Of a stretch of 64,000 nucleotides of DNA, positions 5,311 through 58,739 are shown piece after piece. Where the stretch lies: NCBI RefSeq assembly GCF_900111925.1, contig NZ_FOKA01000004.1:62001-126000 (forward strand). The letters run 5' to 3'. The translations under genes were made by a program, and so were the position numbers. The stretch comes from Cellulomonas marina (GTDB lineage Bacteria > Actinomycetota > Actinomycetes > Actinomycetales > Cellulomonadaceae). Within the stretch, counting starts at the first letter, position 1. Each line of letters opens with the position of its first letter. Under the pieces are notes generated by a model that was given only the letters and a program-made list of their open reading frames with translations, made no database searches and had not been told where the DNA came from.

Positions 5311-6672
5311 ATGCCGTTCACCGCGCAGCTCCTGCCCGACCAGTGGTTCGTGGTCGGCGAGATCACCCCTCAGGACCTGTGGAAGGCGTTCCCCCTCGCC
5401 TTCGCCGGCCTGGTCGTCTGGGGCCTGTGGCTCTACCGGGTCGTCTTGTCGCGTCGCGCTCGGCCCGTCGTCAACGACTTCCGCACGAGCACATCAGTCG
5501 TCGTGCCTTCGTTCCACGAGGACCCCGACATCCTCATGGAGTGCCTGGCGACGTGGCTCGAGCAGAACCCCACCGAGATCATCATCGTGCTCGACGTCGC
5601 GGACACCGAGGCGGAGCAGCGCATCCTCGCCCTCGGCGACCCCCGGGTCGTGCCGGTCATGTTCAAGCACGCCGGCAAGCGGTCCGCACTCGGTGTCGGG
5701 ATGAGGCTGGCCACGAGCGAGCTGCTCGTGCTGGTCGACTCCGACACCCAGTGGCGGCCGGGGCTCCTGGACGCGGTGCAGATGCCATTCGTCGATTCTG
5801 CCGTTGGAGGCGTCGGCACGCAGCAAAACGTCTTCGCGCGCGAGACGAGCGTCTGGCGGCGTATCGCGGACTGGCTCGTCAACCTCCGCTACTACGACTA
5901 CGTCCCGGCGATGGGAGCCGCAGGCGCGGTCGCGTGCCTCTCGGGACGGACCGCTGCCTACCGCAGGGCCGCGGTCGTCCCCGTGCTCGACAACCTAGAG
6001 AACGAGTTCTTCATGGGTCGCCGCTGCATCGCGGGGGACGACGGCCGGCTGACGTGGCTCGTGCTGGCCTCCGGCTACCGCACGGTCCACCAGTCGAGCG
6101 CCCTGGCTCTGTCAATGTTCCCGTCGTCATTCCGGGCGTTCGTCAAGCAGCGCATCCGGTGGAGCCGCAACTCCTACCGCTGCTACCTGACCGCCGCAGG
6201 GAAGGGATGGTTGTGGAGGACGCCGTTCGTGACGAAGGTGACCGTCCTGCAGATCCTGCTGACACCAGTGACCATGGGCATCACGCTCGGCTACCTCTTC
6301 TTCGCCCGCATCGAGGGAACCGTCGTGAGCGTGCTGCTCGCGATCGCATGGGTGCTGCTGGGCCGCGGCATCCGGGGGTTCTCCCACCTGCGCAGGCACC
6401 CCCGCGACCTCGTCCTGCTGCCGCTGCTCACCCTGGTCGTCATCCTCGTCGCCCTGCCCATCAAGCTGTACGCCTTCGTGACCATGAACAAGCAGGGATG
6501 GCTGACGCGTCACGCGGACCAGACGGGTGGCGACGGGCAGACATCGGCGTCCCTGCAGGGTCGCGAAGCACCGGCGCCACGCCCCGCCGACGTGCTCGTC
6601 GAGGCCGGCGCCGCTCTGGCCCCGGCACCGACCCGCCGCAGCGGGCGCACCGGAACGGACGTGCTCGCGTGA
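5311..6672 (+). CDS. Hyaluronan-synthase-like processive glycosyltransferase (GT2)
   Basis: This 453-residue membrane synthase probably polymerises and extrudes a polysaccharide. A TM segment near residues 28-46 precedes the GT-A domain. The motifs match the HAS/NodC branch: D-S-D-T (D143, D145), G-D-D-G-R-L-T (D243, D244) and K-Q-R-I-R-W-S-R (Q280, R283, W284), with Y-R-T-V-H-Q-S between the last two. Three further hydrophobic segments follow (about 308-330, 338-352 and 368-392), as in class I hyaluronan synthases. A soluble, Pro/Ala-rich tail ends it. Its stop overlaps the next start by 4 bp (GTGA), so translation is coupled to a beta-helix protein. A UDP-glucose dehydrogenase downstream could supply UDP-glucuronate. 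The product might be hyaluronan-, heparosan- or alginate-like; the donors are not proven. Confidence 0.85.
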   Translation: MPFTAQLLPDQWFVVGEITPQDLWKAFPLAFAGLVVWGLWLYRVVLSRRARPVVNDFRTSTSVVVPSFHEDPDILMECLATWLEQNPTEIIIVLDVADTEAEQRILALGDPRVVPVMFKHAGKRSALGVGMRLATSELLVLVDSDTQWRPGLLDAVQMPFVDSAVGGVGTQQNVFARETSVWRRIADWLVNLRYYDYVPAMGAAGAVACLSGRTAAYRRAAVVPVLDNLENEFFMGRRCIAGDDGRLTWLVLASGYRTVHQSSALALSMFPSSFRAFVKQRIRWSRNSYRCYLTAAGKGWLWRTPFVTKVTVLQILLTPVTMGITLGYLFFARIEGTVVSVLLAIAWVLLGRGIRGFSHLRRHPRDLVLLPLLTLVVILVALPIKLYAFVTMNKQGWLTRHADQTGGDGQTSASLQGREAPAPRPADVLVEAGAALAPAPTRRSGRTGTDVLA

Positions 6673-8618
6673 GCCGGCAGACGACGCGTGCGGTGGTCGC
6701 GACGGCGGCCCTTGTGGTGGGTGCCCTCCTCAGCCCAGCAGGTCCGGCGCACGCGCACGCCGGCGAGGCACCCGACGAGGTGACGAGCGAGGTCGCCTAC
6801 CCCGGCAACACGATCACCGAACCGGCACTCGTCGCGGACGAGGAAGCCCGGCTGTCCGAGGTGCGCACGGTCGGCAGCATGATCCGGTGGCGAGATCTGG
6901 ACGTCCCTGGGCCGTACCGCCTGAGCACCGGTTCGACGTACACGTTGGTGCTCGCCAAGCGCGAAGAGCCGTACACACTCGCCGACCTCCTCACGCTCGC
7001 GCCGCAGACGTTCGTCCGCGAGCCCGACGGCGCGTACCTGCTCAGCGAGAACATCGTCATCCAGACGGGCGCCACGCTCGACCTGAGCGCCGCCGGTCCC
7101 TTGGAGGTGAGGCTGGCGAGCGATGCGGACCGGTTCGTCTCGATCGTCAACCTTGGCGGCAACCTCTTGACGCGTGGCACGGAGGCAGCGCCGGTGAGCA
7201 TCACGAGCTGGGACCGCGATGCCGGTGCCCCCGACGTGGAGACGGCCGACGGCCGCGCATACATCCGCTCGATCGGTGGCCAGGTCGAGCTGACGGGGAC
7301 CGAGTTCCGGTACCTCGGCTTCTGGAGCGGCAGGACCGGTGGCGTCGCCCTGACCGGCACCGACCTGCCGGTGAACGGCACCCTGGACGCGTACGGCAGG
7401 TTGCTGCGCGACGCCGTCAAGGCGCAGCAGGAGGCGACCGAGCCGGGGGAGACCGACGCAGCGGGCGCGGGTGCCGCAGGCGAGGAGGTCGCTGATCCCG
7501 TCGACCCGGTCGACGGCCTGCTACCCGCCGGCGAGCTCCCCGTGCCGGAGCAGGACGACGAGGACCTCGGCTACAGCTACGTCTCCGCGAAGATCGACGA
7601 CTGCACCTTCGAGGGCAACGCGTTCGGCCTGTTCGTCTCGAGCGCCAACGGCGTCGACATCGACCGTTCCGTCATCAGCGGCAGCCTCGTCGACGGTCTC
7701 GTCATGCACCGCTTCGTCGTGAACGCAGCTGTAAGCCGCACGCGCGCAGTCGACAACGCGGGCGACGGCATCGTCCTCGCACGCGCCACGACGGGCATCG
7801 TTCTGACCGAGGACCACAGCAGCGGGAACGGCGGCAGCGGCATCGTCGTCCGGGGCACACCACTGGCGGACGGTCCGAACGCGAGTGGCATGCCTGTCGG
7901 GGATTACGGCAACAACTCCGTGTCGAACAGCGTGTCGTCGGACAACGGTCGCTACGGGATCGAGATCGTCGGCGGGAGGAACGTCGACGTCAACGCGAAC
8001 GATGTCATCGGCAACGACATGGGCATCGTGGTGCGAGAGGCGGCGCACAAGGTCACGCTCGTCGGGAACCGCCTGGAGCAGAACGAGCGGCACGCGATCG
8101 CCGTCCGAGACGGGGTCACGGGCACGGTGCTAACCGGCAACATCATCGCCGGCGGTCCCGACGGCATCTACGTGCGCGACTCGGCTGCCACCATCCAGCG
8201 CAACACCTTCAGCGAGCACTCCCTGCACGCGGTGACGCTGGTGGGGACGGTGGCCGGGACGGTCGTCTCGGAGAACACGATGGGCGGCCGGGGGCCGAGC
8301 GCGATCGACCGCAAGCGCAGCGAGGGTGCGGAGATCGGGGAGAACGACACGTCCGGATGGGCGAGCACCAAGCCGTTCTGGACGGTCGTGCGCAACGCGA
8401 TGCAGCCTCTTACTGTCATGTGGACCCTGCTGGCGTTGCTGCTGGTCGGCACCGCGGTCGCCGGCAGCCGCAAGCGACGGCAGCGCGGTTTCCGCCACCC
8501 CTACGAGTCGCAGCGGCGCCTGGCCGAGCTGGTCGAGCCGCCGGTGCGGGTGGGCGTCGTCCCGTCCCGCGACCTCGTCGGCGCAGGGCGGCACGCCGGT
8601 GACGAGGGCCAGGGGTGA
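6669..8618 (+). CDS. Exported right-handed parallel beta-helix protein with C-terminal membrane anchor
   Basis: This 649-residue protein has an N-terminal signal peptide (about 1-32, ending A-H-A-H-A) and a large beta-helix of NosD/CASH type in its second half. Typical rungs contain G-I-V-V-R and N-x-I-x-G-N elements (about residues 300-555). One TM helix follows at about 578-597, then a basic cytoplasmic tail. An acidic Ala/Glu-rich insert around 255-300 splits the N-terminal domain from the helix. Family members include alginate C5-epimerases (AlgG/AlgE) and lyases. The AlgG D-P-H-D motif is not present, so the activity is open. The GTG start at 6669 overlaps the synthase stop (GTGA), and its own stop overlaps the next gene the same way. 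It likely acts on the nascent polymer at the outer membrane face. Confidence 0.8.
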   Translation: MSRQTTRAVVATAALVVGALLSPAGPAHAHAGEAPDEVTSEVAYPGNTITEPALVADEEARLSEVRTVGSMIRWRDLDVPGPYRLSTGSTYTLVLAKREEPYTLADLLTLAPQTFVREPDGAYLLSENIVIQTGATLDLSAAGPLEVRLASDADRFVSIVNLGGNLLTRGTEAAPVSITSWDRDAGAPDVETADGRAYIRSIGGQVELTGTEFRYLGFWSGRTGGVALTGTDLPVNGTLDAYGRLLRDAVKAQQEATEPGETDAAGAGAAGEEVADPVDPVDGLLPAGELPVPEQDDEDLGYSYVSAKIDDCTFEGNAFGLFVSSANGVDIDRSVISGSLVDGLVMHRFVVNAAVSRTRAVDNAGDGIVLARATTGIVLTEDHSSGNGGSGIVVRGTPLADGPNASGMPVGDYGNNSVSNSVSSDNGRYGIEIVGGRNVDVNANDVIGNDMGIVVREAAHKVTLVGNRLEQNERHAIAVRDGVTGTVLTGNIIAGGPDGIYVRDSAATIQRNTFSEHSLHAVTLVGTVAGTVVSENTMGGRGPSAIDRKRSEGAEIGENDTSGWASTKPFWTVVRNAMQPLTVMWTLLALLLVGTAVAGSRKRRQRGFRHPYESQRRLAELVEPPVRVGVVPSRDLVGAGRHAGDEGQG

Positions 8619-9832
8619 GCCGTGCACCCGCGCGGCGCGCGCTCGCGCTCCTCGCCCTCGTGGTCGTCCTGACGGCCTGCTCCGAGGGGGGGCCGGACGC
8701 CGCACCGGCCGTGACGACCGCGGCCGGCGAGGTGCCCGGCGAGGTGGTGGCGACGACGACCGGGGCACCGAGCGGCGCACCGCTGGTGTCCGGCTCGGGA
8801 GCCGCAGACGACCAGCCGTCCGGTGACGACGACGAACAAGCCGAGGACGACGACGAGAAGGAGGAGGACGAGGACGGCATGTCGCTCAGCTCCCCGTCGC
8901 CGCTCCCGGGCTGGATGGTCGCCCCGAAGCCGGACACCGGTCTCTGCAGGGCCGCGACGACCGAGGTGGCGGACGGCGACGAGCTGCGCGCCGCGCTGTC
9001 CGCCGCCGGACCGGGCAGCACGATCCGGCTGCGCCCGGGCCTGTACGAGGGGCGCTTCGTCATCACCGCATCGGGCACGTCGGAGGCGCCCGCGACCCTG
9101 TGCGGCCCTGCGGACGCCGTCCTGGACGGCGGCGGGGTAGAGGGCGGCTACGTCCTGCACCTGGACGGCGCGCAGCACTGGCTGCTGCACGGCTTCACCG
9201 TCCGCAACGGGCAGAAGGGCGTCATGGCCGACGGCACGGTCGGCACGACGATCAGCGGCCTGACCGTCTACGGGATCGGCGACGAGGCGGTCCACCTGCG
9301 CCGGCACAGCACGGACAACCGCGTCGTGGACAACGTCATCAGCGACACGGGCCACCGCCGGGGCAAGTTCGGCGAGGGGGTCTACATCGGCACCGCCACC
9401 AGCAACTGGGAGAGCATCACCGACGGCGAGCCGGACCGCAGCGACCGCAACGAGGTCGCCCGCAACGCGATCTACGCCACCACCAGCGAGGCGGTCGACA
9501 TCAAGGAGGGCACCTCCGAGGGGGTGCTGCACGACAACCAGTTCGACGGCTCCGGCATCACCGACGCCGACTCCTGGGTCGACGTCAAGGGCAACGACTG
9601 GGAGATCCGGGACAACGTCGGCCGGTTCAGCCCGCTGGACGGGTTCCAGACGCACGACGTCGCCGACGGCTGGGGCACGCGCAACGTCTTCACCGGCAAC
9701 AGCGGCGCCATCGACGCGGACGAGGGGCACCTCGTCGCCCTGCGGCCGGTGAACGAGAACGTCGTGCGCTGCGACAACCGCCTCGAGGGCGACGGCCGCT
9801 CCGCCGGTCTCAGCAACGTCGACTGCCGTTGA
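8615..9832 (+). CDS. Beta-helix lipoprotein (polysaccharide lyase/epimerase-like)
   Basis: This is a predicted lipoprotein of 405 residues with lipobox L-T-A-C (C22). An acidic low-complexity linker (about 68-92) precedes a right-handed beta-helix (about 115-400). Key strings are I-G-D-E-A-V-H, G-E-G-V-Y-I-G, V-D-I-K-E-G-T (K297) and V-D-V-K-G-N-D-W (K325), then D-G-F-Q-T-H. The acidic-x-Lys arrangement followed by N-x-F recalls the Ca/Lys site of PL6 (chondroitinase B-like) lyases. The usual downstream Arg of PL6 appears to be Lys here. It is a clear paralogue of the secreted protein at 11466-12872. The GTG start overlaps the previous stop by 4 bp. A cell-surface lyase, epimerase or binding protein for the locus polymer is likely. 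Confidence 0.8.
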   Translation: MSRAPARRALALLALVVVLTACSEGGPDAAPAVTTAAGEVPGEVVATTTGAPSGAPLVSGSGAADDQPSGDDDEQAEDDDEKEEDEDGMSLSSPSPLPGWMVAPKPDTGLCRAATTEVADGDELRAALSAAGPGSTIRLRPGLYEGRFVITASGTSEAPATLCGPADAVLDGGGVEGGYVLHLDGAQHWLLHGFTVRNGQKGVMADGTVGTTISGLTVYGIGDEAVHLRRHSTDNRVVDNVISDTGHRRGKFGEGVYIGTATSNWESITDGEPDRSDRNEVARNAIYATTSEAVDIKEGTSEGVLHDNQFDGSGITDADSWVDVKGNDWEIRDNVGRFSPLDGFQTHDVADGWGTRNVFTGNSGAIDADEGHLVALRPVNENVVRCDNRLEGDGRSAGLSNVDCR

Positions 9833-9947
9833 CCGTCGCCCCGCCTCGCACGCCCGCACCGGCGCCACGGCACCACCGCACCTGCACCACCGCACCTGCA
9901 CGGCAGCACCGCACCGTCCCCTATCCGCTCGGGCCCGAGGAGCACCG

Positions 9948-11405
9948 ATGAACAACCAGACCCACAGCACCGTCCGGCTCGTGGAGCCCGTGGTGGACCG
10001 ACCTCGCATGACCGTCATCGGCACCGGCTACCTCGGCGCGACGCACGCCGTGTGCATGGCGGCGCTGGGCTTCGAGGTGCTCGGCGTGGACGTGGACGCC
10101 CGCAAGATCGAGGCGCTCGCGGCCGGCCGCGTGCCCTTCTTCGAGCCCGGGCTGGAGGACCTGCTGCGCGAGACGCTCGCGACCGGGCGTCTGCGGTTCA
10201 CGCAGGACTTCGCGCAGGCGGCGGCGTTCGGCGACGTCCACTTCGTCTGCGTCGGGACGCCCCAGACGAAGGGCTCGCAGGCCGCCGACCTCACGTACGT
10301 GCACGCGGCGGTCGACGCCCTCGCGCGGCACCTCACGCGCAAGTCCCTCGTCGTCGGGAAGTCGACCGTGCCGATCGGGACGGCGGCCGCCCTCACCCAG
10401 CGCCTGCAGGCCGCGGCGCCGGCGGGCGCGGCGGTAGAGCTCGCCTGGAACCCCGAGTTCCTGCGCGAGGGCTACGCGGTGGCCGACACGCTGACGCCGG
10501 ACCGCCTCGTGTTCGGCGTGACATCGGCGTGGGCGTCCGCCCAGCTCCGGGCGGCGTTCGCGCCCGTGCTCGACAAGGGCACGCCGCTCGTGGAGTGCGA
10601 CCTGCCCACGGCAGAGCTGGTCAAGGTCGCCGCCAACTCGTTCCTCGCCACGAAGATCTCGTACATCAACGCCATGGCGGAGGTGTGCGAGGCGACCGGC
10701 GCCGACGTCAACCTGTTGGCCAGGGCGCTGTCCTACGACGCACGCATCGGCGGGCGCTTCCTCAAGCCGGGCCTCGGCTTCGGCGGCGGCTGCCTGCCCA
10801 AGGACATCCGCGCCTTCGCCGCGCGGGCCGACGAGCTCGGTGTGGGTCAGGCCGTGGCGTTCCTGCACGAGGTCGACGCGATCAACAACCGGCGGCGGCG
10901 GCGCACGGTCGACCTGGTGCGCGAGCTGGCGGGCGGCGCCCTGCAGGGGGTCCGCGTCGCGGCTCTCGGCGCCGCGTTCAAGCCGAACTCCGACGACGTG
11001 CGCGACGCGCCGGCGCTCGACGTCGCACGCATGCTGCACGAGGAGGGCGCGGTCGTGCGGGTGTACGACCCGCAGGCCATGGGCAACGCACGGCGTGCCT
11101 ACCCCGAGCTGGCCTACGTCGACTCCCTGCCGGCGGCGGTGCACTTGGCGGACGTGGTCGTGCTGCTCACCGAGTGGGACCAGTTCCGGCACGCCGACCC
11201 GGAGATGATGGGCTGGCTCGTCGCCCAGCGGAAGGTGGTCGACGGGCGCCACGCGCTGGACGCGGACGCCTACCGCGCGGCCGGCTGGGACTACCGGGCG
11301 CTCGGCCGCCCGCTCATGTCGAGCACCGTCGACCTCGGCACCGCTGACGCGGACTCGCTCGAATTCGCCCTCCGTCAGGTGGGGGCCGCCCCCGCTCCCG
11401 CCTGA
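9948..11405 (+). CDS. UDP-glucose/GDP-mannose dehydrogenase family, probably UDP-glucose 6-dehydrogenase
   Basis: This 485-residue enzyme should oxidise UDP-glucose to UDP-glucuronate with two NAD+ in the cytoplasm. A Rossmann motif G-T-G-Y-L-G lies at 25-30. The substrate-contact string A-E-L-V-K-V-A-A-N-S-F-L is followed by G-F-G-G-G-C-L-P-K-D with the catalytic Cys at 282, and C-terminal A-F-K-P-N-S-D-D-V-R-D completes the family pattern. UGD usually reads GFGGSCxPKD, so Gly replaces Ser before Cys. GAGGAGCACCG precedes the ATG at 9948; an internal Met at residue 21 starts the Rossmann fold and is an alternative. It lies 115 bp after the beta-helix lipoprotein, on the same strand as the synthase. 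Together they recall the hasA/hasB pairing. Confidence 0.9.
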   Translation: MNNQTHSTVRLVEPVVDRPRMTVIGTGYLGATHAVCMAALGFEVLGVDVDARKIEALAAGRVPFFEPGLEDLLRETLATGRLRFTQDFAQAAAFGDVHFVCVGTPQTKGSQAADLTYVHAAVDALARHLTRKSLVVGKSTVPIGTAAALTQRLQAAAPAGAAVELAWNPEFLREGYAVADTLTPDRLVFGVTSAWASAQLRAAFAPVLDKGTPLVECDLPTAELVKVAANSFLATKISYINAMAEVCEATGADVNLLARALSYDARIGGRFLKPGLGFGGGCLPKDIRAFAARADELGVGQAVAFLHEVDAINNRRRRRTVDLVRELAGGALQGVRVAALGAAFKPNSDDVRDAPALDVARMLHEEGAVVRVYDPQAMGNARRAYPELAYVDSLPAAVHLADVVVLLTEWDQFRHADPEMMGWLVAQRKVVDGRHALDADAYRAAGWDYRALGRPLMSSTVDLGTADADSLEFALRQVGAAPAPA

Positions 11406-11413
11406 CGCGCACG

Positions 11414-11450
11414 CGGCGCCGGCCCGGACCTGCGATCCGTGCCGGCGCCG
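11414..11450. terminator. Bidirectional hairpin between convergent genes
   Basis: Perfect 10-bp arms, CGGCGCCGGC and GCCGGCGCCG, flank a 17-nt loop between the UGD stop and the stop of the convergent beta-helix gene. There is no T-tract, as is common in high-GC actinobacteria. Confidence 0.6.
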
Positions 11451-11465
11451 CCTGCTGCCGGTCCG

Positions 11466-12872
11466 TCAGCTCGTGGGGCTGATGGCCCGGCCGTTGGAGC
11501 CGACGAGGCCCATCACCGCGCCGGCGGCGCTGTTCGTGGCGTCGGCGACGTTGCCTGAGACCGGGTAGAGGCCGATGCCGAAGCCCTTCACGGTGCCCTC
11601 GACGACGTTGCCGCGGAACACGTTGCCCGTCCCGTAGCCGCTGTAGACGGTGTGGGTCTGGAAGCCGTCGAGGAACGCGCCCGAGGCGCCGCGCACCACG
11701 TTGCCCTCGATGAGCCAGCCGTTGCCCTTGGCGTCGACCGCGGAATCCGCGGAGTTCTCGCCCGAGAAGCCCACGTTGACGAACACGTTGCCGCGCAGCG
11801 TGCCGGACTCCGTGCCCTCCTTGAGGTCAGCCCCCTCGGCCGGGACGTCCGTGAAGACGTTGTTCTCGACGAGGACGCGCTCGGAGTTGTCGCGACCGTC
11901 CGTGCAGCTGTACTTCGACCAGTTCGAGTTGGCCGAGCCGACGTACACGCCCTCGCCGTAGCGCGGCGCGCGCAGGCCGGTGTCGTGCACCGACGAGTTC
12001 CGCAGCACGCCGTCGGAGGAGCAGGCGCGGAAGTGCACGCCCTCGTCGCCGATGGTGCCGACGTCGACGCCGTCGAGCACCGTGCCCACGCTGCCGTCCA
12101 GCACGATGCCCTTCGTCGCGTCCCGGACCGAGAGGCCGAGCACCCGCCAGTGGTCACCCGTGATGTGCAGGCCGTAGTCGCCGGTCACACCGCTGGAGGT
12201 CAGCACGGCGGTGCGGGGACCGCGCAGCGTGATCGGCTGCGCCGACGTGCCGTTCGCCGCCGCCACCCACCGGGAACCGCCGGCGCGCACGTACCGGCCC
12301 GGCGCGAGGTCGATGACGCTGCCGGGCCCGGCGGTGGCGAGCGCGCGCTCGAGCTGGGCGACGGTGCTCACCGTGACGGCGGCGCCGGGGGTCGGGGCCG
12401 GTGTCGTCGGCTGCGGGGTGGGGGTCGGGGTCGGCGCGGGGGTCGTGGGGGTGGGCGTCGGGGTGGGCGTGGGCGTGGGGATCGGGGTGGGGGTCGCCGT
12501 CGGCGGGGTGGTCGGGGCCGCCGCGGTCGCGCTGACCGTGAAGGACACCTCCACGCGGCCGAGCGAGGCCTTCTGGCCGTCGTAGAGCCGCACCTCGAGC
12601 TCGTGCGCGCCAGGCGCCAGCGAGAGGGGCCAGGTGAAGGGCGCCGTGGAGTCCGCACCGAGGTAGGTGCCGTCGACGACGAACTTCGCCTTGGCCGTCC
12701 CGGCGACGGGCGGCGCGCTGACCGTGGTCTGCGGCGCGACGACCGCACCCGCGAGCGGGAGCCCGTCGACGGTCGGCCCGAGGGGGGCGGCACCGGCGCT
12801 CGGTGCCAGGAGCAGGGCGAGGGGCAGCACGGCCGCCGCCGTGACGCACCGTCGGAGCGTGGTCGTGGTCAT
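11466..12872 (-). CDS. Secreted beta-helix protein with Ig-like domain and Thr/Pro linker
   Basis: This exported protein has 468 residues. The order is a signal peptide (about 1-29), an Ig-like beta-sandwich (about 30-112), a T-P repeat linker (about 118-160) and a right-handed beta-helix to the end. The helix shares I-G-D-E-G-V-H, G-E-G-V-Y-V-G-S, A-D-L-K-E-G-T (K351), V-D-A-K-G-N-G-W (K382) and D-G-F-Q-T-H with the lipoprotein at 8615-9832. The two are therefore paralogues with different delivery: one lipid-anchored, one released. The T-P linker is typical of actinobacterial secreted carbohydrate enzymes. The ATG at 12872 was chosen because a signal peptide starts directly there. It likely degrades or remodels the locus polysaccharide outside the cell; PL6-like chemistry is inferred. 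Confidence 0.8.
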   Translation of the reverse strand: MTTTTLRRCVTAAAVLPLALLLAPSAGAAPLGPTVDGLPLAGAVVAPQTTVSAPPVAGTAKAKFVVDGTYLGADSTAPFTWPLSLAPGAHELEVRLYDGQKASLGRVEVSFTVSATAAAPTTPPTATPTPIPTPTPTPTPTPTTPAPTPTPTPQPTTPAPTPGAAVTVSTVAQLERALATAGPGSVIDLAPGRYVRAGGSRWVAAANGTSAQPITLRGPRTAVLTSSGVTGDYGLHITGDHWRVLGLSVRDATKGIVLDGSVGTVLDGVDVGTIGDEGVHFRACSSDGVLRNSSVHDTGLRAPRYGEGVYVGSANSNWSKYSCTDGRDNSERVLVENNVFTDVPAEGADLKEGTESGTLRGNVFVNVGFSGENSADSAVDAKGNGWLIEGNVVRGASGAFLDGFQTHTVYSGYGTGNVFRGNVVEGTVKGFGIGLYPVSGNVADATNSAAGAVMGLVGSNGRAISPTS

Positions 12873-22455: not shown

Positions 22456-24699
22456 TCAGGGGGCCGTGGCGGCGGTGACGGCCTCGTCGGACGGCGGGAC
22501 GAGCGGCGTGAGCAGCGGCGCGAGCCACCGGCTCCACGCCGCCGTGATGTGCGAGGCGTCGCGGTAGACCAGGAGGTTGCCGACCACCGCGGGGCAGGTG
22601 CGGTCGGTGCAGAGCCACTCGAGGGGGTCGACCGTGGGCACCCCGAGGCCCGCCGCGGCCGCGGCGACGGCCTCGCGGCGCTGCTCGTAGGGCACGACGT
22701 CCTCGCGCGGGACCGCGCACGCGCCGACGTCCGCCAGGTGCCCCGCCAGGCACTCGGGGACGTCGATGCCCGGGTACGGGGTGTCGAGGAGGAGGACGAC
22801 GGGCAGGCCGGCGTCGGTGAGCCGCGCGAGGGTGCGACCGGTCGCCTCGCCCCACTGGCCGGAGCCGACCTGGTCGCCGGGGACGGTGTCGGACTGGGAG
22901 ACGACGACGAGGTCGGGCGCCAGGGCCACCACCCGGTCGACGGTGGCCTGCCGCCACGCGTCGCACTCGGTGTAGTCGCGGCGCAGGTCGGTGTTGAACA
23001 GGGGCACGTCGGCGACCGGGCACGCGGCCTTCGTCCACGCGCGGACCTGCCAGCCCGAGCCGGCGGCGGCGGTGTCGAGGGCGGGCAGCCACTGCTGGGC
23101 GTGGGAGTCGCCGAGCAGCACGACCGTGCGGTCGCCCACGACGGCGCCGTACACGCAGGCGGGCTGGTCGACCTGGTCGTAGGCGGCGTGGCAGCCGTCG
23201 GACGACGAGACCGGCTGGTCACCGCGCGCGACCGCGAGCGCCGGCGTGAGGTTGGAGGGCAGGTCGGTGACGCCGGTCGCGGTGGCGATCGTCGCGCGGA
23301 CGGCCCGGACGTCGGCCGCCGCGACGGGTGCGGCCTGCGCGGCGGCTCCGCGACCGACGACGGTGGGCAGGGTGAGGTGCACGGCCAGCCCGGCGACGAG
23401 GGTCGTCGCCAGCAGCGCGGCCCCCGCGGCCAGCCAGCGGCGCGGGCTCACGTGCAGGGTGCGCAGCGGACGCTCGACGAGCCAGTACGACAGCACCGCG
23501 AGCCAGAGCGTGAGGACCGCGAGCTGCAGGTTCGTCGTCCAGCCGAGGGTGCGGCTGAAGAGCTGCGGCACGAGGACGAGGGCCGGCCAGTGCCACAGGT
23601 ACCAGCCGTAGGACACGGCCCCGATCCCCTGCAGCGGCCGCAGCGCGAGCAGACGCTCGACGGCGAGCCGGGGACCGGTCCCCCGCACGCCGACCGTGCC
23701 GGCGGCGATGACCGCCGCGGTGGCGAGGACCGGCAGGAGGGCGGCGGTGCCCGGGAAGGGCGTGCGGTCGGTGTAGGTGACGCCCGCGGCGACCACGCCG
23801 ACGAGGCCCGCCCAGCCGAGGACGGTCGACGCGAGCGCGGTCGCCGCCGCGACGCGGCCGTCGGACGTCCCGGCGCGGGTGCCGGCGCGGGCCAGGGCCC
23901 CGGCGCCCAGCGCGAGGAGGCCGCCGACGCCGAGCTCCCACGCGCGAGTGTGGAGGGAGAAGTAGGCCAACGGGCTGCCCGACCCGACCGCGCGGACGGA
24001 CGCCAGGAACGAGGCGACGACCACCGCGGCGAGGACGACCCCGAGCGCCAGGGGGAAGACCGTGCGGCGTGCCGACGTCGCGCGGGCGGACCTCGTCGCG
24101 AGGAGGGCGCAGGCCGCGACGAGCAGCGGCCACAGGACGTAGAACTGCTCCTCCACGCCGAGGGACCAGTAGTGCTGCAGCGGCGACTCGGGGCTGCCCA
24201 CCTGGCCGTAGTCGACGCCGTCGGCGGCGAGCGCGTAGTTGAGCACGTGCACGCCCGCGAGCGCCGCGTACCGGGCGAGCTCCGGCAGGCCGAACACCGG
24301 CCCCCACAGGCGCGCGACGACGAGCGTGACCAGCACGACGAGGGTCGCCATCGGCGCCAGCCGTCGCACCCGCCCTGTCCAGAAGCGCGCGAACCGCACG
24401 CGGCCGTGCGTCCGCACGTCGCGCAGGAGGTGACCGGTGATGAGGAAGCCCGAGACGACGAAGAAGACGTCGACGCCGACGTAGCCGCCCGCGAAGCCCG
24501 GCACGCCCGCGTGATAGAGCACGACGAGCAGCACCGCGACGGCGCGCAGCCCCTGCACGTCCCGGCGCCACGTGCCCGCGGGGGTGGGGGCGGTGCGACC
24601 GGCGGTGGCGGGGGTGGGAGCGGTCGTCGGCGCCGGGCCGGTCCTGCTGGTGGCCGCGCGGGCGAGCGGCGGGGTGAGCGTCTCGGCGGGGGCGGTCAC
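22456..24699 (-). CDS. OafA-type acyltransferase with C-terminal SGNH domain (copy 2)
   Basis: This 747-residue integral membrane O-acyltransferase probably transfers acetyl groups to an exported glycan. The N-terminal acyltransferase-3 domain (about 45-400) begins R-D-V-Q-G-L-R-A-V-A-V and has L-Y-H-A-G, D-V-F-F-V-V-S-G-F-L-I-T and Q-H-Y-W-S-L-G-V-E-E-Q-F. The C-terminal extracellular SGNH esterase-like domain has L-L-G-D-S-H-A-Q-Q-W (Ser) and D-A-S-H-I-T (Asp/His). Both domains look complete. The GTG start overlaps the upstream stop by 4 bp (GTGA), so it is translated with its paralogue at 24696-26825. It sits between a cellulose-synthase-like GT2 and a GH6 enzyme, suggesting O-acylation of that beta-glucan. 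Confidence 0.88.
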   Translation of the reverse strand: MTAPAETLTPPLARAATSRTGPAPTTAPTPATAGRTAPTPAGTWRRDVQGLRAVAVLLVVLYHAGVPGFAGGYVGVDVFFVVSGFLITGHLLRDVRTHGRVRFARFWTGRVRRLAPMATLVVLVTLVVARLWGPVFGLPELARYAALAGVHVLNYALAADGVDYGQVGSPESPLQHYWSLGVEEQFYVLWPLLVAACALLATRSARATSARRTVFPLALGVVLAAVVVASFLASVRAVGSGSPLAYFSLHTRAWELGVGGLLALGAGALARAGTRAGTSDGRVAAATALASTVLGWAGLVGVVAAGVTYTDRTPFPGTAALLPVLATAAVIAAGTVGVRGTGPRLAVERLLALRPLQGIGAVSYGWYLWHWPALVLVPQLFSRTLGWTTNLQLAVLTLWLAVLSYWLVERPLRTLHVSPRRWLAAGAALLATTLVAGLAVHLTLPTVVGRGAAAQAAPVAAADVRAVRATIATATGVTDLPSNLTPALAVARGDQPVSSSDGCHAAYDQVDQPACVYGAVVGDRTVVLLGDSHAQQWLPALDTAAAGSGWQVRAWTKAACPVADVPLFNTDLRRDYTECDAWRQATVDRVVALAPDLVVVSQSDTVPGDQVGSGQWGEATGRTLARLTDAGLPVVLLLDTPYPGIDVPECLAGHLADVGACAVPREDVVPYEQRREAVAAAAAGLGVPTVDPLEWLCTDRTCPAVVGNLLVYRDASHITAAWSRWLAPLLTPLVPPSDEAVTAATAP

Positions 24700-26825
24700 G
24701 CGGTCTCCTCCAGGCGGGTGTCGACGACCTCGCCGAGGACGGGGGCGAGCAGCGCGCTGTAGGTGGCGGTGACGTGCGAGGAGTCGCGGTAGGTCATGAC
24801 GTCGCCGACGACGGGCGGGCAGGCGACGTCGGTGCAGAGCCAGGGCGTCGGGTCGACGGTGGCGACGCCGCCCGTCGCCAGGGCCTGCGCGAGGGCGCCG
24901 TGGCGGTCGCCGAACGGCGTGGAGCCCTTGACCGTCTGGATGCAGGCGCGGGCGTCGTCGAGGTGGCGGCCGAGGCAGTCCGGCACGGACTGGGCGCGGT
25001 AGGGGGTGTCGAGCACGTAGAGGACGCGCTCACGCTCGACGCCGATCGCGGCGAGCCCGGCCAGGGTCCGCTCGGACCACGTGTCGTTGTCGACGTCGTC
25101 GCCGACGACCGCGTCGCTCTGGGAGACGACGACGAGGTCGGGGTCGAGCGCCGCGACGCGGGCGCGGGTCTCGTCGCGCCAGGTCGTGCACTCGGTGTAG
25201 GCGCGGCCGAGCGGTCCGGCCCACGCGTCGAGCTCGGCCACGGGGCACGCGGACTTCGTCCAGGCGACGAGGCGCCAGCCGCGCTCCTGCGCGCTGCGGT
25301 CCAGCGCCGGCAGCCACTGCTGGGCGTGCGAGTCGCCGATGAGCACGACCGTCCGGTAGCCCGCCGGGTCGCCGTACCGGCAGTCGGGCTGGTCGACGAC
25401 GAGCCAGTCCGCGTGGCACCCGTCGGTGGTCGACGCCGGCTGGTCGGTGACGGCCTCCGCGAGCGTGGGCGTGAGGTTGGCGGGCACGGCCCGGGTGTCC
25501 AGGGCCTGCTCCAACGTGGCGGCCAGGCCGCCGGCAGCGGCCTCGTCGAGCCGCAGGGGCGCCACGGGAATCCCGGGCCCGACGAGGGACGGCAGCGTCA
25601 CGAGCGCGACGCCGGCGGCTGCCACGGAGGACGCGACGAGCGCGCCGCCCGTGGCGAGCCACCGGCGCACGGGCCAGCGGGTGCGCTGCAGCGGGCGCTC
25701 GACCAGCCAGTACGTCATCGTCGCGAGCCAGAGCGTCACGGCCGCGAGCTCGAGCAGCACCCACCACGGCAGGTCCCGGCCGTAGACGGTGGGGACGAGG
25801 ACCATCGCCGGCCAGTGCCACAGGTACCAGCCGTAGGAGGCGGCGCCCAGGCCCTGCAGGGGGCGCAGGCCGAGGAGGCGGCCGGCGCCGTGCCCGCCGG
25901 CGGCGATGACCGCGGCCGCACCGAGCACGGGGACGAGCGCGGCCGAGCCCGGGAAGGGGGTCGTCGCGTCGAAGAGCAGCGCGCCGGCGAGCACCGCCGC
26001 GAGCCCCGCCCACGCCAGCACGCGCGCCGCCGCCACCGGCAGGCGCGCGACCCGCCCGGCGCCGACCGCCAGCAGCGCGCCGACGCCCAGCTCCCACGCC
26101 CGGGTCTGCAGGGAGAAGTAGGCCAGCGGCGCGTTCGTCGCCGTCGTGCGGACGGAGACCAGCAGGGACACCGCGACCACGAGGACGAGCCCCACGGCGG
26201 CCGCGCGCCGGCGGTGGCGGCGCGGCACGAGCGCGAGCAGCCCCAGCAGCAGCGGCCACACGAGGTAGAACTGCTCCTCCACCGCCAGCGACCAGAAGTG
26301 CTGCAGCGGCGACTCCGGGCCGTCGACGTGCTGGTAGTCCACGCCCTGCGCGGCCAGCCGGTAGTTGAGCCCGTTGACCCCGGCCAGCAGCGCGTCCCAC
26401 GCGATGGACGCGATGCGGAACGGCGAGCCCCACAGCCGGGCGACGACGAGCGTCGTCACCACGACGAGCGTCGCCAGCGGCAGCAGGCGGCGGGCGCGGG
26501 CCGCCCAGAACCGCGCGAACCGGATGCGGCCGTGCTCGTCGAGGTCGCGCAGCAGGTGGCCGGTGATGAGGAAGCCGGAGATGACGAAGAAGACGTCGAC
26601 GCCGACGTAGCCGCCCTCCAGCCCCGGCACGCCCGCGTGGTAGAGCACGACGACGAGCACCGCCAGCGCGCGCAGGCCCTGGACGTCCGTGCGCCAGCCG
26701 GGGCGGGTGCGGCGGTGCGGGGTCGGGTCCGCCGGTCCTGCGGGGTCGGCGTCCGCGCCGGGGGGCGCGGGGGCGCCGGCCGGGCGCTCGCCGGCGGGGG
26801 CGCGGGTGTCGAGCGCGAGCGTCAC
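24696..26825 (-). CDS. OafA-type acyltransferase with C-terminal SGNH domain (copy 1)
   Basis: This 709-residue paralogue of the following gene has the same order. A Pro/Ala-rich cytosolic start precedes acyltransferase-3 helices (R-T-D-V-Q-G-L-R-A-L-A-V, L-Y-H-A-G-V, D-V-F-F-V-I-S-G-F, Q-H-F-W-S-L-A-V-E-E-Q-F). An SGNH domain follows with V-L-I-G-D-S-H-A-Q-Q-W and D-S-S-H-V-T-A-T-Y. All expected catalytic residues are visible. Its GTG start lies 7 bp after the stop of the GT2 synthase, and its stop overlaps the next start. The three genes therefore form one tight operon. Two tandem copies may acylate different hydroxyls or act in sequence; a recent tandem duplication is possible. Confidence 0.88.
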   Translation of the reverse strand: MTLALDTRAPAGERPAGAPAPPGADADPAGPADPTPHRRTRPGWRTDVQGLRALAVLVVVLYHAGVPGLEGGYVGVDVFFVISGFLITGHLLRDLDEHGRIRFARFWAARARRLLPLATLVVVTTLVVARLWGSPFRIASIAWDALLAGVNGLNYRLAAQGVDYQHVDGPESPLQHFWSLAVEEQFYLVWPLLLGLLALVPRRHRRRAAAVGLVLVVAVSLLVSVRTTATNAPLAYFSLQTRAWELGVGALLAVGAGRVARLPVAAARVLAWAGLAAVLAGALLFDATTPFPGSAALVPVLGAAAVIAAGGHGAGRLLGLRPLQGLGAASYGWYLWHWPAMVLVPTVYGRDLPWWVLLELAAVTLWLATMTYWLVERPLQRTRWPVRRWLATGGALVASSVAAAGVALVTLPSLVGPGIPVAPLRLDEAAAGGLAATLEQALDTRAVPANLTPTLAEAVTDQPASTTDGCHADWLVVDQPDCRYGDPAGYRTVVLIGDSHAQQWLPALDRSAQERGWRLVAWTKSACPVAELDAWAGPLGRAYTECTTWRDETRARVAALDPDLVVVSQSDAVVGDDVDNDTWSERTLAGLAAIGVERERVLYVLDTPYRAQSVPDCLGRHLDDARACIQTVKGSTPFGDRHGALAQALATGGVATVDPTPWLCTDVACPPVVGDVMTYRDSSHVTATYSALLAPVLGEVVDTRLEETA

Positions 26826-26832
26826 GCCGGGC

Positions 26833-28605
26833 TCACGGGGTCACCGCGACGGGTGCGGCCGCCGGGACCGCCGGGGTGACCGGCTCGGCGAGCGTGACCG
26901 GCGCGGCGAGCGTGACCGGCTCGGCGCCGGCGGCCGTCAGGGCCGTGACGGGTGCGGGCGCGAGCGCTGGGGCTGCTCGTCGGGCGGCGCCGTCGCGGAG
27001 GCCCGCAGCGACGAGCGGCCACTGGACGTACGCGCTCAGCGCGGCGAGCAGCAGCATCGCCCACAGCGGGCCGAGGCCGTAGGTGAGCACGCCGTGCACG
27101 AGGCCCGTCCAGAGCAGCGCCTGCGTGACGGCGACGGTGAGGGTGGCGGTGCGCACGATCGTCGTCGCCAGGGGCGTGCGCCGGCCGACGCCGCCCGCGG
27201 TGCCGGTCGCCACCCACTCCTTCGTGCGGCCGCTGAGCACGTGCGCGATCGCGACGGCGTGCGCGAAGGAGTACAGGATCTGCACGCGCAGCACGTCGAT
27301 GCGCCAGCGCCCGCGCATGACCAGCGGGTTCACGACGAGCCAGAGCGCGACCGCGCCCAGGAGCCAGACGGAGTTCATCGGCTCGATCCAGGCGGGGAAC
27401 GCCCAGAGCATGACGAGCGCCGGCAGCGGCGCGACGAACGCGTTCACCCCGGTGGAGATGTAGTAGAGGAAGCCGGCCCAGAAGCACAGGCGCTGGCGCA
27501 GGGACAGCGGCGTGCGGTCGTGGAAGGCCGGGTCGGCGAGCAGGGACATCGAGCCGGTGCACCAGCGGTACTGCTGGGTGACGAAGCTGCGCACGTCCTC
27601 CGGGCACAGGCCCTTGGACACGACGACCGGCACGTACCGCACGACGTAGCCGGCGCGCAGGAGGCCGATGCCGGTGTGCACGTCCTCCGAGTGGCCGATC
27701 TGGGCGAACCCGCCGGCGTCGCGCAGGGCCGAGCGGCGGTACAGCGCGCAGGTGCCGACGCAGATGGCGGCGTCGGAGGCGTCGCGGGCGGGCTGGATCC
27801 AGCGGTAGAACATCTCCTGCGTGGCGCCGGCGCAGCGCTGCAGCCAGCCCATGCCGCGGACGGCGTCGAAGAACTGCGGCGACTGGACGATGCCGACGCG
27901 GGCGTCGTCGAGGTAGGGCACGAGGTCGTGGAGGTAGTCCGGCCGCGGCACGAAGTCGGCGTCGAGGACGGCGATGACGTCGCCGTCGCTGTGCTCGTAC
28001 CCGTAGCGCAGGTTGCCGGCCTTCTTCAGCCGGCCGCGGTCGGGTCGCACGTGGTACTCGAAGCCGTGGGCCTCGGCGAGCGTGCGGACCTCCGGCCGTG
28101 CGGCGTCGTCGAGCACGAGGACCCGCAGCGGGCCGTCCCAGACCAGCGCCGCGACGTGGCGGTAGGTGTTGGCGAGGACGTCGAGCGGCTCCCCCGCCGT
28201 CGGGAGGAACACGTCCACCGACGGCACCACCGCCGGCGACCAGGACCGCACGAGCGCCTCGTGCGAGGCCAGCGACACGCGGCGGCGCCGGCTGCCGGAG
28301 ACGAAGGAGACCGCCATCGTCACGCCGAACAGCGACAGGGGGACGAGGAAGAGCAGCAGCCGCTGGTCCGCGACGGAGAACTGCGTCGCCGACACGGCGA
28401 TGAGCAGGAACGACACGCTCTGCAGCACGAGGAGCCAGCGGTGCTGCCGGCCCAGGTACCAGGTGCGCTCGGCGTCGGTCGGCGGGCTCGGCAGCCGCCA
28501 CGCCGCCTCGGTCGCGTCGATCGCGTCGATGGCGTCGGGCACCGAGCCCGTCGCGGTCGCGACGGGCGTCGCGCCCGTCGTGGTGCCCTCGAGCGTCGCG
28601 GTCAT
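26833..28605 (-). CDS. Cellulose-synthase-like glycosyltransferase (GT2, BcsA-like)
   Basis: This 590-residue membrane synthase probably makes a beta-glucan from UDP-glucose. Two TM helices near 55-100 precede the catalytic domain. V-L-D-D-A-A-R-P-E, A-V-L-D-A-D-F, S-E-D-V-H-T-G and Q-Q-Y-R-W-C-T-G-S give the full D, DxD, D, QxxRW set. L-K-K-A-G-N-L-R also matches cellulose synthases. Four to five further TM helices follow, then an Ala/Pro/Val-rich tail with repeats of V-T-L-A-x-P-V. No PilZ domain is present, so direct c-di-GMP control as in Gram-negative BcsA is not expected. The ATG at 28605 has AGGGAGG eight bases upstream; the longer frame to 28644 lacks a good site. It leads an operon with two acyltransferases and probably GH6. 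Confidence 0.88.
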   Translation of the reverse strand: MTATLEGTTTGATPVATATGSVPDAIDAIDATEAAWRLPSPPTDAERTWYLGRQHRWLLVLQSVSFLLIAVSATQFSVADQRLLLFLVPLSLFGVTMAVSFVSGSRRRRVSLASHEALVRSWSPAVVPSVDVFLPTAGEPLDVLANTYRHVAALVWDGPLRVLVLDDAARPEVRTLAEAHGFEYHVRPDRGRLKKAGNLRYGYEHSDGDVIAVLDADFVPRPDYLHDLVPYLDDARVGIVQSPQFFDAVRGMGWLQRCAGATQEMFYRWIQPARDASDAAICVGTCALYRRSALRDAGGFAQIGHSEDVHTGIGLLRAGYVVRYVPVVVSKGLCPEDVRSFVTQQYRWCTGSMSLLADPAFHDRTPLSLRQRLCFWAGFLYYISTGVNAFVAPLPALVMLWAFPAWIEPMNSVWLLGAVALWLVVNPLVMRGRWRIDVLRVQILYSFAHAVAIAHVLSGRTKEWVATGTAGGVGRRTPLATTIVRTATLTVAVTQALLWTGLVHGVLTYGLGPLWAMLLLAALSAYVQWPLVAAGLRDGAARRAAPALAPAPVTALTAAGAEPVTLAAPVTLAEPVTPAVPAAAPVAVTP

Positions 28606-49268: not shown

Positions 49269-50390
49269 CTACGGAGCGGTGTCCAGCCGGGCGCGCGCGG
49301 GGGCGGGCACGGAGGCGGGCGCGGAAGTGGGCGCGGGGTCGGGCGTGGCGTGCGGCGCGCTCCCGGGTGGCGTCACGGCCCCGGACGCCGCCAGCACCCG
49401 CCCCGCCGGCCCCGGGCCGCGCGCCGGGCGCCGCAGCGACCGCGCGACGAGCACCAGGCCCGCCAGCGTCCCGCGCACGACCGCCGAGACCGGCCGCCAG
49501 GGGCGCAGGAGCTGGCGACGTCCGCCGCGCAGCAGCACCTCGACGGCATAGGACCCCGTCGTCAGCGCCCACCGCAGACGGGTGCGCCGGGACAGGTGCT
49601 GCGTCGCGAACAGCAGACGGTTGCGGCAGTTCCAGTAGTAGTAGGTCGGGGACTTCGCGGGCGACGACGACGCGCCGCCCCGCTGCGTGCCCCCGACGGC
49701 GTGCCCGGCGCGGGCCTCGTCGAGCACGGCGACCGTGCCGCCCGCGCGGCGCACGCGCCAGCACAGGTCGACGTCCTCCCAGTAGAGGAAGTAGTCGTCG
49801 TCGTACCCGCCGACGGCCTCCCACAGGCGCCGGTGCACGACGAGGGCCGTGCCGACGAGCCAGGGCTCGGCCGGGGTGCGACCGTCGCGGACGATCGTCG
49901 CGTGGCCCGTGCGCAGGTCCAGGTCGGCGCCGGCGAACCACAGGTCCCCGTCCGCCTTGTCGATGCGCGGGCTGAGCAGCGCCATCGGGTCGGCCCGGAC
50001 CCGCCGCTCGAGGGCGTGGAGGTCCGCGGCGCCCATCCAGGCGTCGGGGTTGAGCAGCAGGAAGACGTCGTGGCCGTCCGCGGTCGCCCGGCGGACGCCC
50101 GCGTTCATGCCCGCGCCGAACCCGGGGTTGCCGTCCATCTCGAGGACCTGCCAGCCCTCGCGCGCGGCCAGGCCCCGCAGCCCGGCGCGCTCGGCGGACG
50201 TCGTCCGGTTGTCGACGACGTACACGGCGCCCGCCACCGCGGCCAGCTCGGAGCCGGCCAGGTGCTGCTCGAGCAGGCGCGAGGACGCGTAGTTGACGAC
50301 GACGACGGCGACGCCGCGGTCGCGTCCCCCGTGCGGGCGGTCCTCGTCCTCCCGGTCCCCCGGGGGGTGCACCTCGGTGCGCACGCTCAT
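49269..50390 (-). CDS. Family 2 glycosyltransferase (rhamnosyl/galactofuranosyl-type)
   Basis: This 373-residue transferase probably adds a single sugar to a surface glycan. The GT-A domain starts V-A-V-V-V-V-N-Y-A-S. V-Y-V-V-D-N-R-T-T, G-N-P-G-F-G-A-G-M-N-A-G and L-L-L-N-P-D-A-W (the DxD-like N-P-D) follow, and Y-F-L-Y-W-E-D-V-D-L-C-W-R supplies the acidic catalytic motif. This string set is typical of WbbL/GlfT-like rhamnosyl or galactofuranosyl transferases. No TM domain is evident. The Ala/Pro-rich C-terminus is low complexity. The ATG at 50390 was chosen over long upstream open frames because the domain starts there. It is divergent from the pyruvyl-transferase-like gene. Confidence 0.88.
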   Translation of the reverse strand: MSVRTEVHPPGDREDEDRPHGGRDRGVAVVVVNYASSRLLEQHLAGSELAAVAGAVYVVDNRTTSAERAGLRGLAAREGWQVLEMDGNPGFGAGMNAGVRRATADGHDVFLLLNPDAWMGAADLHALERRVRADPMALLSPRIDKADGDLWFAGADLDLRTGHATIVRDGRTPAEPWLVGTALVVHRRLWEAVGGYDDDYFLYWEDVDLCWRVRRAGGTVAVLDEARAGHAVGGTQRGGASSSPAKSPTYYYWNCRNRLLFATQHLSRRTRLRWALTTGSYAVEVLLRGGRRQLLRPWRPVSAVVRGTLAGLVLVARSLRRPARGPGPAGRVLAASGAVTPPGSAPHATPDPAPTSAPASVPAPARARLDTAP

Positions 50391-50485
50391 GGGCCGTCCC
50401 CTCTGCACGACGTCACTGCTTGGCGCCGGCGTCGGGAACATACCCGGCACAGGGGAGGGACCGGCCGCCACGTGACGGAGCCGAC

Positions 50486-50548
50486 GCGTCACCCGCCCGG
50501 CGTCACCCGTCCGTGGTGCCTCACCGGCCCGGGGGACGCCCCTAGAGT
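50486..50548 (+). promoter_or_regulatory. Direct repeats and -10 element before the pyruvyl-transferase-like gene
   Basis: GCGTCACCC occurs at 50486-50494 and again at 50500-50508, a spacing of 14 bp. TAGAGT (50543-50548), a TAGnnT -10 form, follows 34 bp later and lies 65 nt before the ATG at 50613. The repeats could be a regulator's half-sites. Confidence 0.4.
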
Positions 50549-50612
50549 CGGCGCCGTCCCCGGGTGCGCCGCCTCTCCGCGCGCCCGTCCCCGAGCAGAC
50601 GGGAACCCTGGC

Positions 50613-51695: not shown

Positions 51696-51710
51696 GGCGG
51701 TCCGGTCGGC

Positions 51711-52859: not shown

Positions 52860-53340
52860 GGACGCCTCCGGGGCGGGCGCGCGTCGACCCCGGTGGGCTG
52901 CGGTGGTCGGACGGGCGCCGCACGGCGGTCACCCGCCGCCAGTCTGTCCTGGGAGCGCGCTGGACGGGACCTGGGGGCGACGTGTCGCTGCTCACCCGCG
53001 GGCTCGTCGCCGCGACGGGCGGGGCGGCGCGGGGTCAGACCGGCGGGCGCCCCGCGACGGCGCGGCGGAGCGCGGGCGGCATCGCGAAGAGCACCCGCGG
53101 CGACGCGCCCGGGCAACCGTCCCGACACGACGTGCGCGGCGAGGCGGCCAGCACCGTGACAGCGACGGCGGGCCATGTGACGCGGCCGGCCGCGCGCCGC
53201 AGCAGTGGTGCGCCGTACACGCCCCCGGGGTGCCGACCACCAGGTGGTAGGGGTGCGCGGGAACGCTGCCGCTGCGGGACGAGGTCGCGGGCCCGAGGTG
53301 ACAGGTGTTCACCTCCGCGCCCGCACGCGTCGGGCGGCGG
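52860..53340. other. 481-bp gap with gene remnant, no intact gene
   Basis: Between the acyltransferase start and the next stop there is no intact gene. It holds the acyltransferase remnant (53035-53220) and a CCACC-A-GGTGG palindrome (53229-53239) that could be an operator. The rest shows no recognisable element. Confidence 0.5.
53035..53220 (-). pseudogene. C-terminal remnant of an acyltransferase family 3 gene
   Basis: A minus-strand frame ends S-P-R-V-L-F-A-M-P-P-A-L-R-R-A-V-A-G-R-P-P-V. This closely matches the end of the intact neighbour (T-P-A-R-V-L-F-A-V-P-A-G-L-R-A-R-V-A-G-T-P-P). Upstream, W-P-A-V-A-V-T-V-L-A also fits the last TM helix. No acyltransferase core precedes it, so only the last helix and tail remain. 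It reads as a decayed or deleted tandem copy. A small live protein is possible but less likely. Confidence 0.6.
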
Positions 53341-56654: not shown

Positions 56655-56745
56655 GACGACCTCCTGCTCGTGGGCACGACCGCCCGGGGTGTCGCGGGGG
56701 CTTCGGGGGGCGTCGCCGTCGGCGCGCCGTCGCGGGTCGCCGGGC

Positions 56746-57942: not shown

Positions 57943-58043
57943 GTGGGTCTCCTCGGCGGGGCGGGGGCTGACGGGCGGACCGCGGTCCGGGCGCGGTGCA
58001 CGCGGCCGGCAGCGGTGCGACGACCCGGTCGCGGAATGCGGTG

Positions 58044-58733: not shown

Positions 58734-58739
58734 GCAGGC

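Follow-up and report, generated by a model that had tools for sequence, protein, structure and literature searches.

The window analysed here is a stretch of 64,000 nucleotides from the 3.96 Mb genome of Cellulomonas marina (G000:C14, positions 62001-126000), and the present text deals with five genes near its beginning that are predicted to produce and modify an extracellular polysaccharide: a family 2 glycosyltransferase (GT2), an AlgG-like beta-helix protein (BH1), two lyase-type beta-helix proteins (BH2 and BH3) and a uridine diphosphate (UDP)-glucose 6-dehydrogenase (UGD). All five were confirmed at the positions given in the original prediction, which had assigned them to one operon (Table 1). 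For GT2, BH1, BH2 and UGD this assignment stood, with all four on the same strand, overlaps of 4 bases at the GT2/BH1 and BH1/BH2 junctions and a gap of 115 bases between BH2 and UGD; BH3 is convergent to UGD and therefore lies outside the operon, with which it is associated. Based on homology and recurrence, we lean towards an operon that would make and edit an extracellular polyuronate.

Table 1 Genes of the locus and sequence features of their products (positions in the window; aa, amino acids; TM, transmembrane).
Feature	Position	Strand	Remark
GT2, family 2 glycosyltransferase, 453 aa	5311..6672	+	membrane-embedded, of processive type, predicted polymer synthase
GT2 DSDT (D143-T146), DxD metal/UDP motif	5737..5748	+	sequence; aligned to CvHAS DSDT
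GT2 QRIRW (Q280-W284), QxxRW motif	6148..6162	+	sequence; R283 aligns with CvHAS R341
BH1, AlgG-like right-handed beta-helix protein, 649 aa	6669..8618	+	probable C5-epimerase acting on the polymer, or a related enzyme that modifies uronates (prediction)
BH1 His347, aligned with His of AlgG DPHD	7707..7709	+	36/36 family members
BH1 Arg372, aligned with Arg of AlgG ISR/FSR segment	7782..7784	+	36/36 plus 4/4 variants
BH1 C-terminal TM helix, residues 579-601	8403..8471	+	hydrophobic segment; basic tail after it
BH1 Pro-Tyr pair, residues 611-612	8499-8504	+	tail after TM helix; invariant in 36/36 aligned members
BH2, PsAly-type polysaccharide lyase, lipoprotein, 405 aa	8615..9832	+	predicted from homology
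BH2 lipobox LTAC (L19-C22)	8669..8680	+	sequence
BH2 Tyr257, equivalent to PsAly catalytic Tyr184	9383..9385	+	36/36
BH2 Lys297, equivalent to PsAly catalytic Lys221	9503..9505	+	36/36
UGD, UDP-glucose 6-dehydrogenase, 485 aa	9948..11405	+	dedicated precursor enzyme
BH3, secreted PsAly-type lyase paralogue, 468 aa	11466..12872	-	Pro/Thr linker after N-terminal part

Predicted synthase and precursor enzyme

GT2 matches the Pfam family PF13641 (7e-26) and has four hydrophobic segments (residues 27-47, 312-330, 331-352 and 363-394). Its best NCBIfam model is that of the chitooligosaccharide synthase NodC (3.9e-40), yet with 138 bits it stays far under the cut-off of 550 bits, whereas the solved structures nearest to the GT2 family profile are the hyaluronan synthases (HAS) XlHAS1 (9.6e-26) and CvHAS (1.4e-24). 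The HAS/NodC-type motifs mentioned in the original prediction are present as DSDT, GDD and QRIRW. Passages from two papers place K177 and R341 of CvHAS at the carboxylate of the glucuronate (GlcA) moiety of UDP-GlcA and list H174, C267 and R348 as further active-site residues (PMC12987647, PMC11750622); the equivalents in GT2 are K123, R283, H120, C209 and R290, respectively. An assignment of the enzyme as a hyaluronan synthase is not supported, nevertheless. The motifs GDDR and WGTR/WGTSGR, described for HAS in an excerpt of PMC11750622, are replaced in GT2 by GDDG and WLTR, the latter in the gating loop, which reads WGTR or WGTS in HAS and WLSR in NodC. In a tree of 33 rows, GT2 and its variants form a single clade with a support of 95/95, apart from NodC, HAS, Alg8 and the synthases of a hydrolase-paired sister operon described below, although HAS is represented by two partial, long-branched sequences and several long branches make the deep order unsafe.

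UGD matches the nucleotide-sugar dehydrogenase model TIGR03026 (6.7e-124). In a phmmer search it scored 325 bits to the UDP-glucose dehydrogenase 4a7p versus 187 bits to guanosine diphosphate (GDP)-mannose dehydrogenase, the reverse of a control AlgD from a Rhizobium alginate operon, so named from gene order (L122; 434 bits to GDP-mannose dehydrogenase versus 234 bits to the best UDP-glucose dehydrogenase). Oxidation of UDP-glucose to UDP-GlcA is thus a very likely activity of UGD. Since a second homologue (61%) is present elsewhere in the genome, we take the copy in the operon as dedicated to it. These comparisons make it highly improbable that the dehydrogenase produces GDP-mannuronate and that the polymer is true alginate, even if the partner proteins are AlgG-like and alginate-lyase-like; moreover, Alg8 is only a distant relative of GT2 (hhalign 2e-10, compared to 1e-29 for NodC).

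Recurrence of the operon and a hydrolase-containing sister

A scan of species genomes yielded 147 GT2 relatives, the best 80 of which were kept, representing 79 distinct loci with 67-89% identity. Genes were called and clustered over 80 loci (the window and the 79 related ones), which were picked by GT2 similarity, include near relatives and are not independent; the gene caller missed GT2 in L052 and L076. BH1 was present in 78, BH2 in 72 and UGD in 64 of these loci, and every other neighbour family in at most 16, a recurrence beyond chance. The 4-base overlap recurs at 27 of 77 GT2-BH1 junctions, and in 63/80 loci a UGD is encoded no more than 9 kb downstream of GT2, or in 63/72 after removal of eight that, by our reading, are cut by the contig end inside the operon (8 of the 17 without UGD). 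The four genes are found together in many soil actinobacteria; among the genera carrying the operon are Cellulomonas, Microbacterium, Streptomyces, Actinomadura and Herbidospora.

In order to count genomes of the order to which C. marina belongs, limits of 1e-40 for GT2, 1e-15 for BH1 and 1e-25 for BH2, or better, were applied. GT2 matches were obtained in 28 of 297 genomes (the window's own included), 21 of them at 58-100% identity and seven at 34-39%. BH1 was found in the same 21 genomes that have the close GT2, and BH2 in 27, comprising 20 of those 21 and seven without GT2; in the close-GT2 genome lacking BH2, G163, the contig that bears GT2 is about 3.3 kb long. Neither BH1 nor BH2 was matched at these limits in the seven genomes with the distant GT2. 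Phylum-wide, 4 of 395 other genomes gave a GT2 match at the limit of 1e-40 (40-61% identity). The distribution of the operon is patchy, and the recurring co-occurrence envisaged in the original prediction was found for the four families in the loci and for GT2, BH1 and BH2 in the genomes. Apart from that, G185 carries GT2, BH1 and BH2 in two copies each, and two contigs titled Vibrio cholerae 35D (L040) and Stenotrophomonas maltophilia P13 (L045) contain GT2 at 77% and 70%, the former with all four operon genes, which suggests mislabelled or contaminated assemblies.

Five of the seven genomes with the distant GT2 were opened (L112 to L116). In L112, L113, L114 and L116, a GT2 is followed by a protein of 486-565 aa and then by UGD (57-61%); in L115, a 555-aa protein comes after GT2, and UGD was not found in 17 kb. 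Three of the second proteins were tested, those of L112, L114 and L116, and match Pfam GH26; the nearest PDB chains to that of L112 are named endoglucanase H (4.5e-27), which we take to be the lichenase CtLic26A. A Curtobacterium plasmid (L125) carries a similar trio of GT2, an annotated 'glycosyl hydrolase' and a dehydrogenase. This sister operon shares with the window a related GT2 (33-37%) and UGD in adjacent genes, but has a glycoside hydrolase where the window has both beta-helix proteins. The wider GT2 group is repeatedly paired with UGD and a swappable set of extracellular sugar-active enzymes.

The constancy of UGD bears on the question whether the product could be a chitin-like or poly-N-acetylglucosamine-like polymer with an incidental UGD. 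NodC being the best NCBIfam model and the WLTR gating loop resembling WLSR of NodC would fit such a product. However, UGD follows GT2 in 63/72 uncut loci, is kept in four of the five opened sister operons as well as in L125, and the uronate lyases would be left without a substrate, all of which renders this polymer very improbable. The operon also differs from NodC systems by its separate synthase clade and by the lack of a NodB-type deacetylase among the recurring neighbours.

The beta-helix proteins

BH1 matches the beta-helix family PF13229 (5.2e-22), and the AlgG fold is matched over most of its chain. Given hydrophobic segments at residues 7-27 and 579-601, it is predicted to be secreted and held by the C-terminal transmembrane helix; the Pro-Tyr pair in the tail might be a docking point to the synthase. 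Conservation was counted in a 36-row alignment, as a regular expression, which matched 63 of 103 BH1 proteins, proved unsuited: in many non-matching proteins the motif is preceded by HG, and an unrelated HR turned up in several rows. In the alignment, His347, Arg348 and Arg372 are invariant (36/36), including the tandem copies of BH1 that occur in many loci, among them those of Actinomadura, Herbidospora and Microbispora.

The comparison with AlgG depends on the alignment register. In three variant operons, L117 (1-4920, minus strand), L118 and L119, BH1 keeps the complete DPHD motif of AlgG within the sequence YGFDPHD, which mafft aligns with DGLVMHR of the main family and which puts His347 of the window on the histidine of the motif. 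Because YGFDPHD falls on DGLVMHR, we chose this register. Moreover, when residues 305-348 were compared without gaps to an AlgG profile (three rows, two of which are 95% alike), the placement of His347 on the DPHD histidine was the best of 350 offsets, with a score of 21.6 (next 4.5; mean -38.4, standard deviation 12.7); a 7-residue block alone preferred other offsets. An alternative register, in which hmmsearch and hhalign set the HR of BH1 (Arg348) on the ISR of AlgG, one coil off, was set aside by us on account of the variants L117-L119. The carboxylate-neutralising arginine would be Arg372 by the alignment of these variants and Arg348 according to hmmsearch and hhalign. As for the contig of L118 (8.8 kb), it has the same 424-aa UGD homologue at both ends (56-1330 and 7503-8777, plus strand) and may be circularised or mis-assembled.

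From homology, C5-epimerisation appears likely for the DPHD-type BH1, whereas for the window type we give it an even chance; that BH1 of the window, without DPHD, would still be an epimerase is the point of the favoured account of which we are least sure. Compared to the mannuronan C5-epimerases AlgG and AlgE, the main family including the window has DGLVMHR, a membrane tether and a low-confidence insertion at about residues 233-303. Beta-helix proteins can serve as binding scaffolds, and BH1 could, with a lower yet appreciable probability, be a non-catalytic scaffold guiding or binding the chain, or a second lyase, instead of an epimerase. The loss of DPHD and of the AlgG residue Tyr314 in the main family would agree with this, as would the tandem copies, but the invariance of His347, Arg348 and Arg372 and the occurrence of DPHD-bearing relatives at the same place after GT2 speak against it.

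BH2 is homologous in sequence and fold to the lyase PsAly of Paenibacillus sp. FPU-7 (6kfn), a family presumably numbered PL31, even though its score to PF13229 (25.4 bits) is just under the cut-off of 25.9. Tyr184 and Lys221 of PsAly are catalytic (PMC6796002). The BH2 family keeps both of them together with K128, H154, R156, D250 and K252, as well as the cation ligands E181, E216, D219, D246 and Q276, in 35 or 36 of 36 rows each; the sixth ligand, Y244, is not kept in this alignment, and D188, K191 and Y195 of PsAly are likewise missing in BH2, which also differs from PsAly in being linked to a synthase. A lipobox was detected with a narrow pattern in 7 of 85 BH2 homologues (BH3-like ones included), an N-terminal hydrophobic segment in 66 and neither in 12, so the mode of anchoring seems to vary within the family and the lipoprotein form not to be general. 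BH3 is, judging from its sequence, a lyase-type paralogue of BH2: it matches PF13229 (1.9e-9), has the same active-site residues, and its residues 166-452 match 6kfn in a phmmer search (5.8e-48), in which residues 59-103 gave a weak match to a GH9 chain (2.4e-5). Trimming of a polymer by the lyases BH2 and BH3 therefore has a good probability.

Identity of the polymer

The sequences establish the order of the genes, their recurrence, the homology of each part and the conservation of the catalytic residues of the lyases; from these we infer all activities, as well as the sugar and the linkage. UGD would oxidise UDP-glucose to UDP-GlcA, which the membrane-embedded GT2 would polymerise, alone or with a second UDP-sugar, and pass through the membrane in the manner of HAS-type synthases; that the chain contains GlcA is quite likely. 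Outside the cell, the tethered BH1 would act on the uronates of the emerging chain, most likely by C5 inversion of D-GlcA to L-iduronate (L-IdoA), by analogy to AlgG, which converts mannuronate to guluronate. At 4-linked uronates, the lipoprotein BH2 would cleave the polymer by beta-elimination for trimming, release or clearing, and the secreted BH3 would do the same away from the cell. The core of the original prediction, a polymer of uronic acid that undergoes modification at the cell surface, finds support in homology and recurrence, namely in the dedicated UGD, the AlgG-like BH1, the PsAly-type lyases with their catalytic residues and the association of these proteins with the synthase.

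With regard to composition, we slightly prefer a homopolymer over a heteropolymer. In its most specific form, an 'iduronate alginate', the synthase clade would make a beta-1,4-D-glucuronate homopolymer, which AlgG relatives outside the cell would turn into a D-GlcA/L-IdoA copolymer and the lipoprotein lyase would set to length, with DGLVMHR as a GlcA-adapted AlgG site and L117-L119 as an evolutionary bridge; this full account is a tentative and rather doubtful proposal. Of low probability as well is a glycosaminoglycan-like heteropolymer with a hyaluronan- or heparosan-like backbone, in which GT2 would alternate GlcA with N-acetylglucosamine or glucose and BH1 and BH2 would act on 4-linked GlcA like chondroitin- or heparin-modifying enzymes. 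In its favour are the dual-sugar HAS enzymes as the nearest solved relatives of GT2, the equivalents of the five CvHAS residues (which NodC shares except for the histidine) and the lichenase-like GH26 in place of BH1 and BH2 in the sister operon, a hint of glucose plus GlcA there. It is opposed by the position of GT2 apart from the two partial HAS rows in the tree, by the altered GDDR and WGTR motifs, by the absence of a recurring amino-sugar gene among the listed neighbour families and by the fact that alginate, the known substrate of PsAly, consists of uronate only.

Several observations weigh against the polyuronate account. NodC has all the HAS-equivalent active-site residues of GT2 except the histidine, and therefore these residues are no proof of a GlcA donor. 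UGD is missing within 9 kb downstream in 9/72 uncut loci, and 7 of the 27 genomes with BH2 lack GT2. BH1 of the window reads V-M-H-R at the DPHD position, so that only the histidine is kept and three of the four residues are gone, BH1 of L120 has neither this histidine nor DPHD, and Tyr314 of AlgG is replaced by Asp342 (Asp in 21/36, His in 12/36). The BLAST match between BH1 and its L117 counterpart spans residues 53-230, outside the catalytic region, the register given by hmmsearch and hhalign is one coil off, and a whole-chain alignment does not separate the two registers (-2.1 versus 1.3). Finally, PsAly was active on alginate alone among the polysaccharides tried by its authors, which did not include glucuronan and hyaluronan.

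Among known systems, the alginate operon (algD-alg8-alg44-algG-algX-algL), represented by the copies L122-L124 on Rhizobium plasmids, which we named from order and homology, clusters the same four functions, namely a sugar-nucleotide dehydrogenase, a processive GT2, an AlgG-type beta-helix protein and a lyase. An AlgG-like protein plus a lyase is given as a feature of alginate clusters in an excerpt of PMC4444821, and both are present here with BH1 and BH2; an AlgD-type GDP-mannose dehydrogenase and an Alg8-type synthase are absent from the operon, which instead combines a UDP-glucose dehydrogenase, a GT2 of another clade and a PsAly-type lyase in an actinobacterial setting, without any further recurrent family (PilZ, acetylation, outer-membrane proteins). 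The hasA/hasB systems for hyaluronan resemble it in the HAS-related GT2 with a dedicated UGD and in the carboxylate-side Lys/Arg equivalents (also kept in NodC), but differ in clade, in having GDDR/WGTR instead of GDDG/WLTR and in lacking beta-helix enzymes within the operon. Since the four functions of alginate are present with other parts, we file the operon as a variant of synthase-dependent exopolysaccharide systems that is neither alginate nor hyaluronan. A full-text search of open-licence PMC papers did not yield a description of the operon or its polymer; in the excerpts concerned, a survey of operons from 2020 describes those for alginate largely from Pseudomonas (PMC7112194), and its companion paper Pel operons in Gram-positives (PMC7112168).

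If the polyuronate account is correct, actinobacteria would have a counterpart of alginate that does without an outer membrane, is built from a glycosaminoglycan sugar and is cut down to four genes. The operon would provide a candidate exopolymer for the five genera named above. If BH1 forms iduronate on the polymer, biomedically interesting polysaccharides with IdoA could be obtained by way of a bacterium, and the two types of BH1, DPHD and HR, would represent a natural experiment on how an epimerase comes to act on another sugar.

Other parts of the window hold further features. At 22456-28605 (minus strand), a large GT2 (26833-28605) has as neighbours two AT3 acyltransferases with fused SGNH domains (22456-24699 and 24696-26825), and this may be a second locus for a cell-surface glycan, an acylated one. 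A polysaccharide cluster at 49269-60732 comprises glycosyltransferases, a pyruvyl transferase, an acyltransferase, an NAD-dependent epimerase, a cytidylyltransferase and a CDP-alcohol phosphatidyltransferase. At 29390-32293 (minus strand), a 967-aa protein with pentapeptide-repeat similarity is encoded in a patch of low guanine-plus-cytosine content, with a fraction of 0.60 at 30001-32000, where the remaining bins of 2 kb in the window have about 0.70-0.79.
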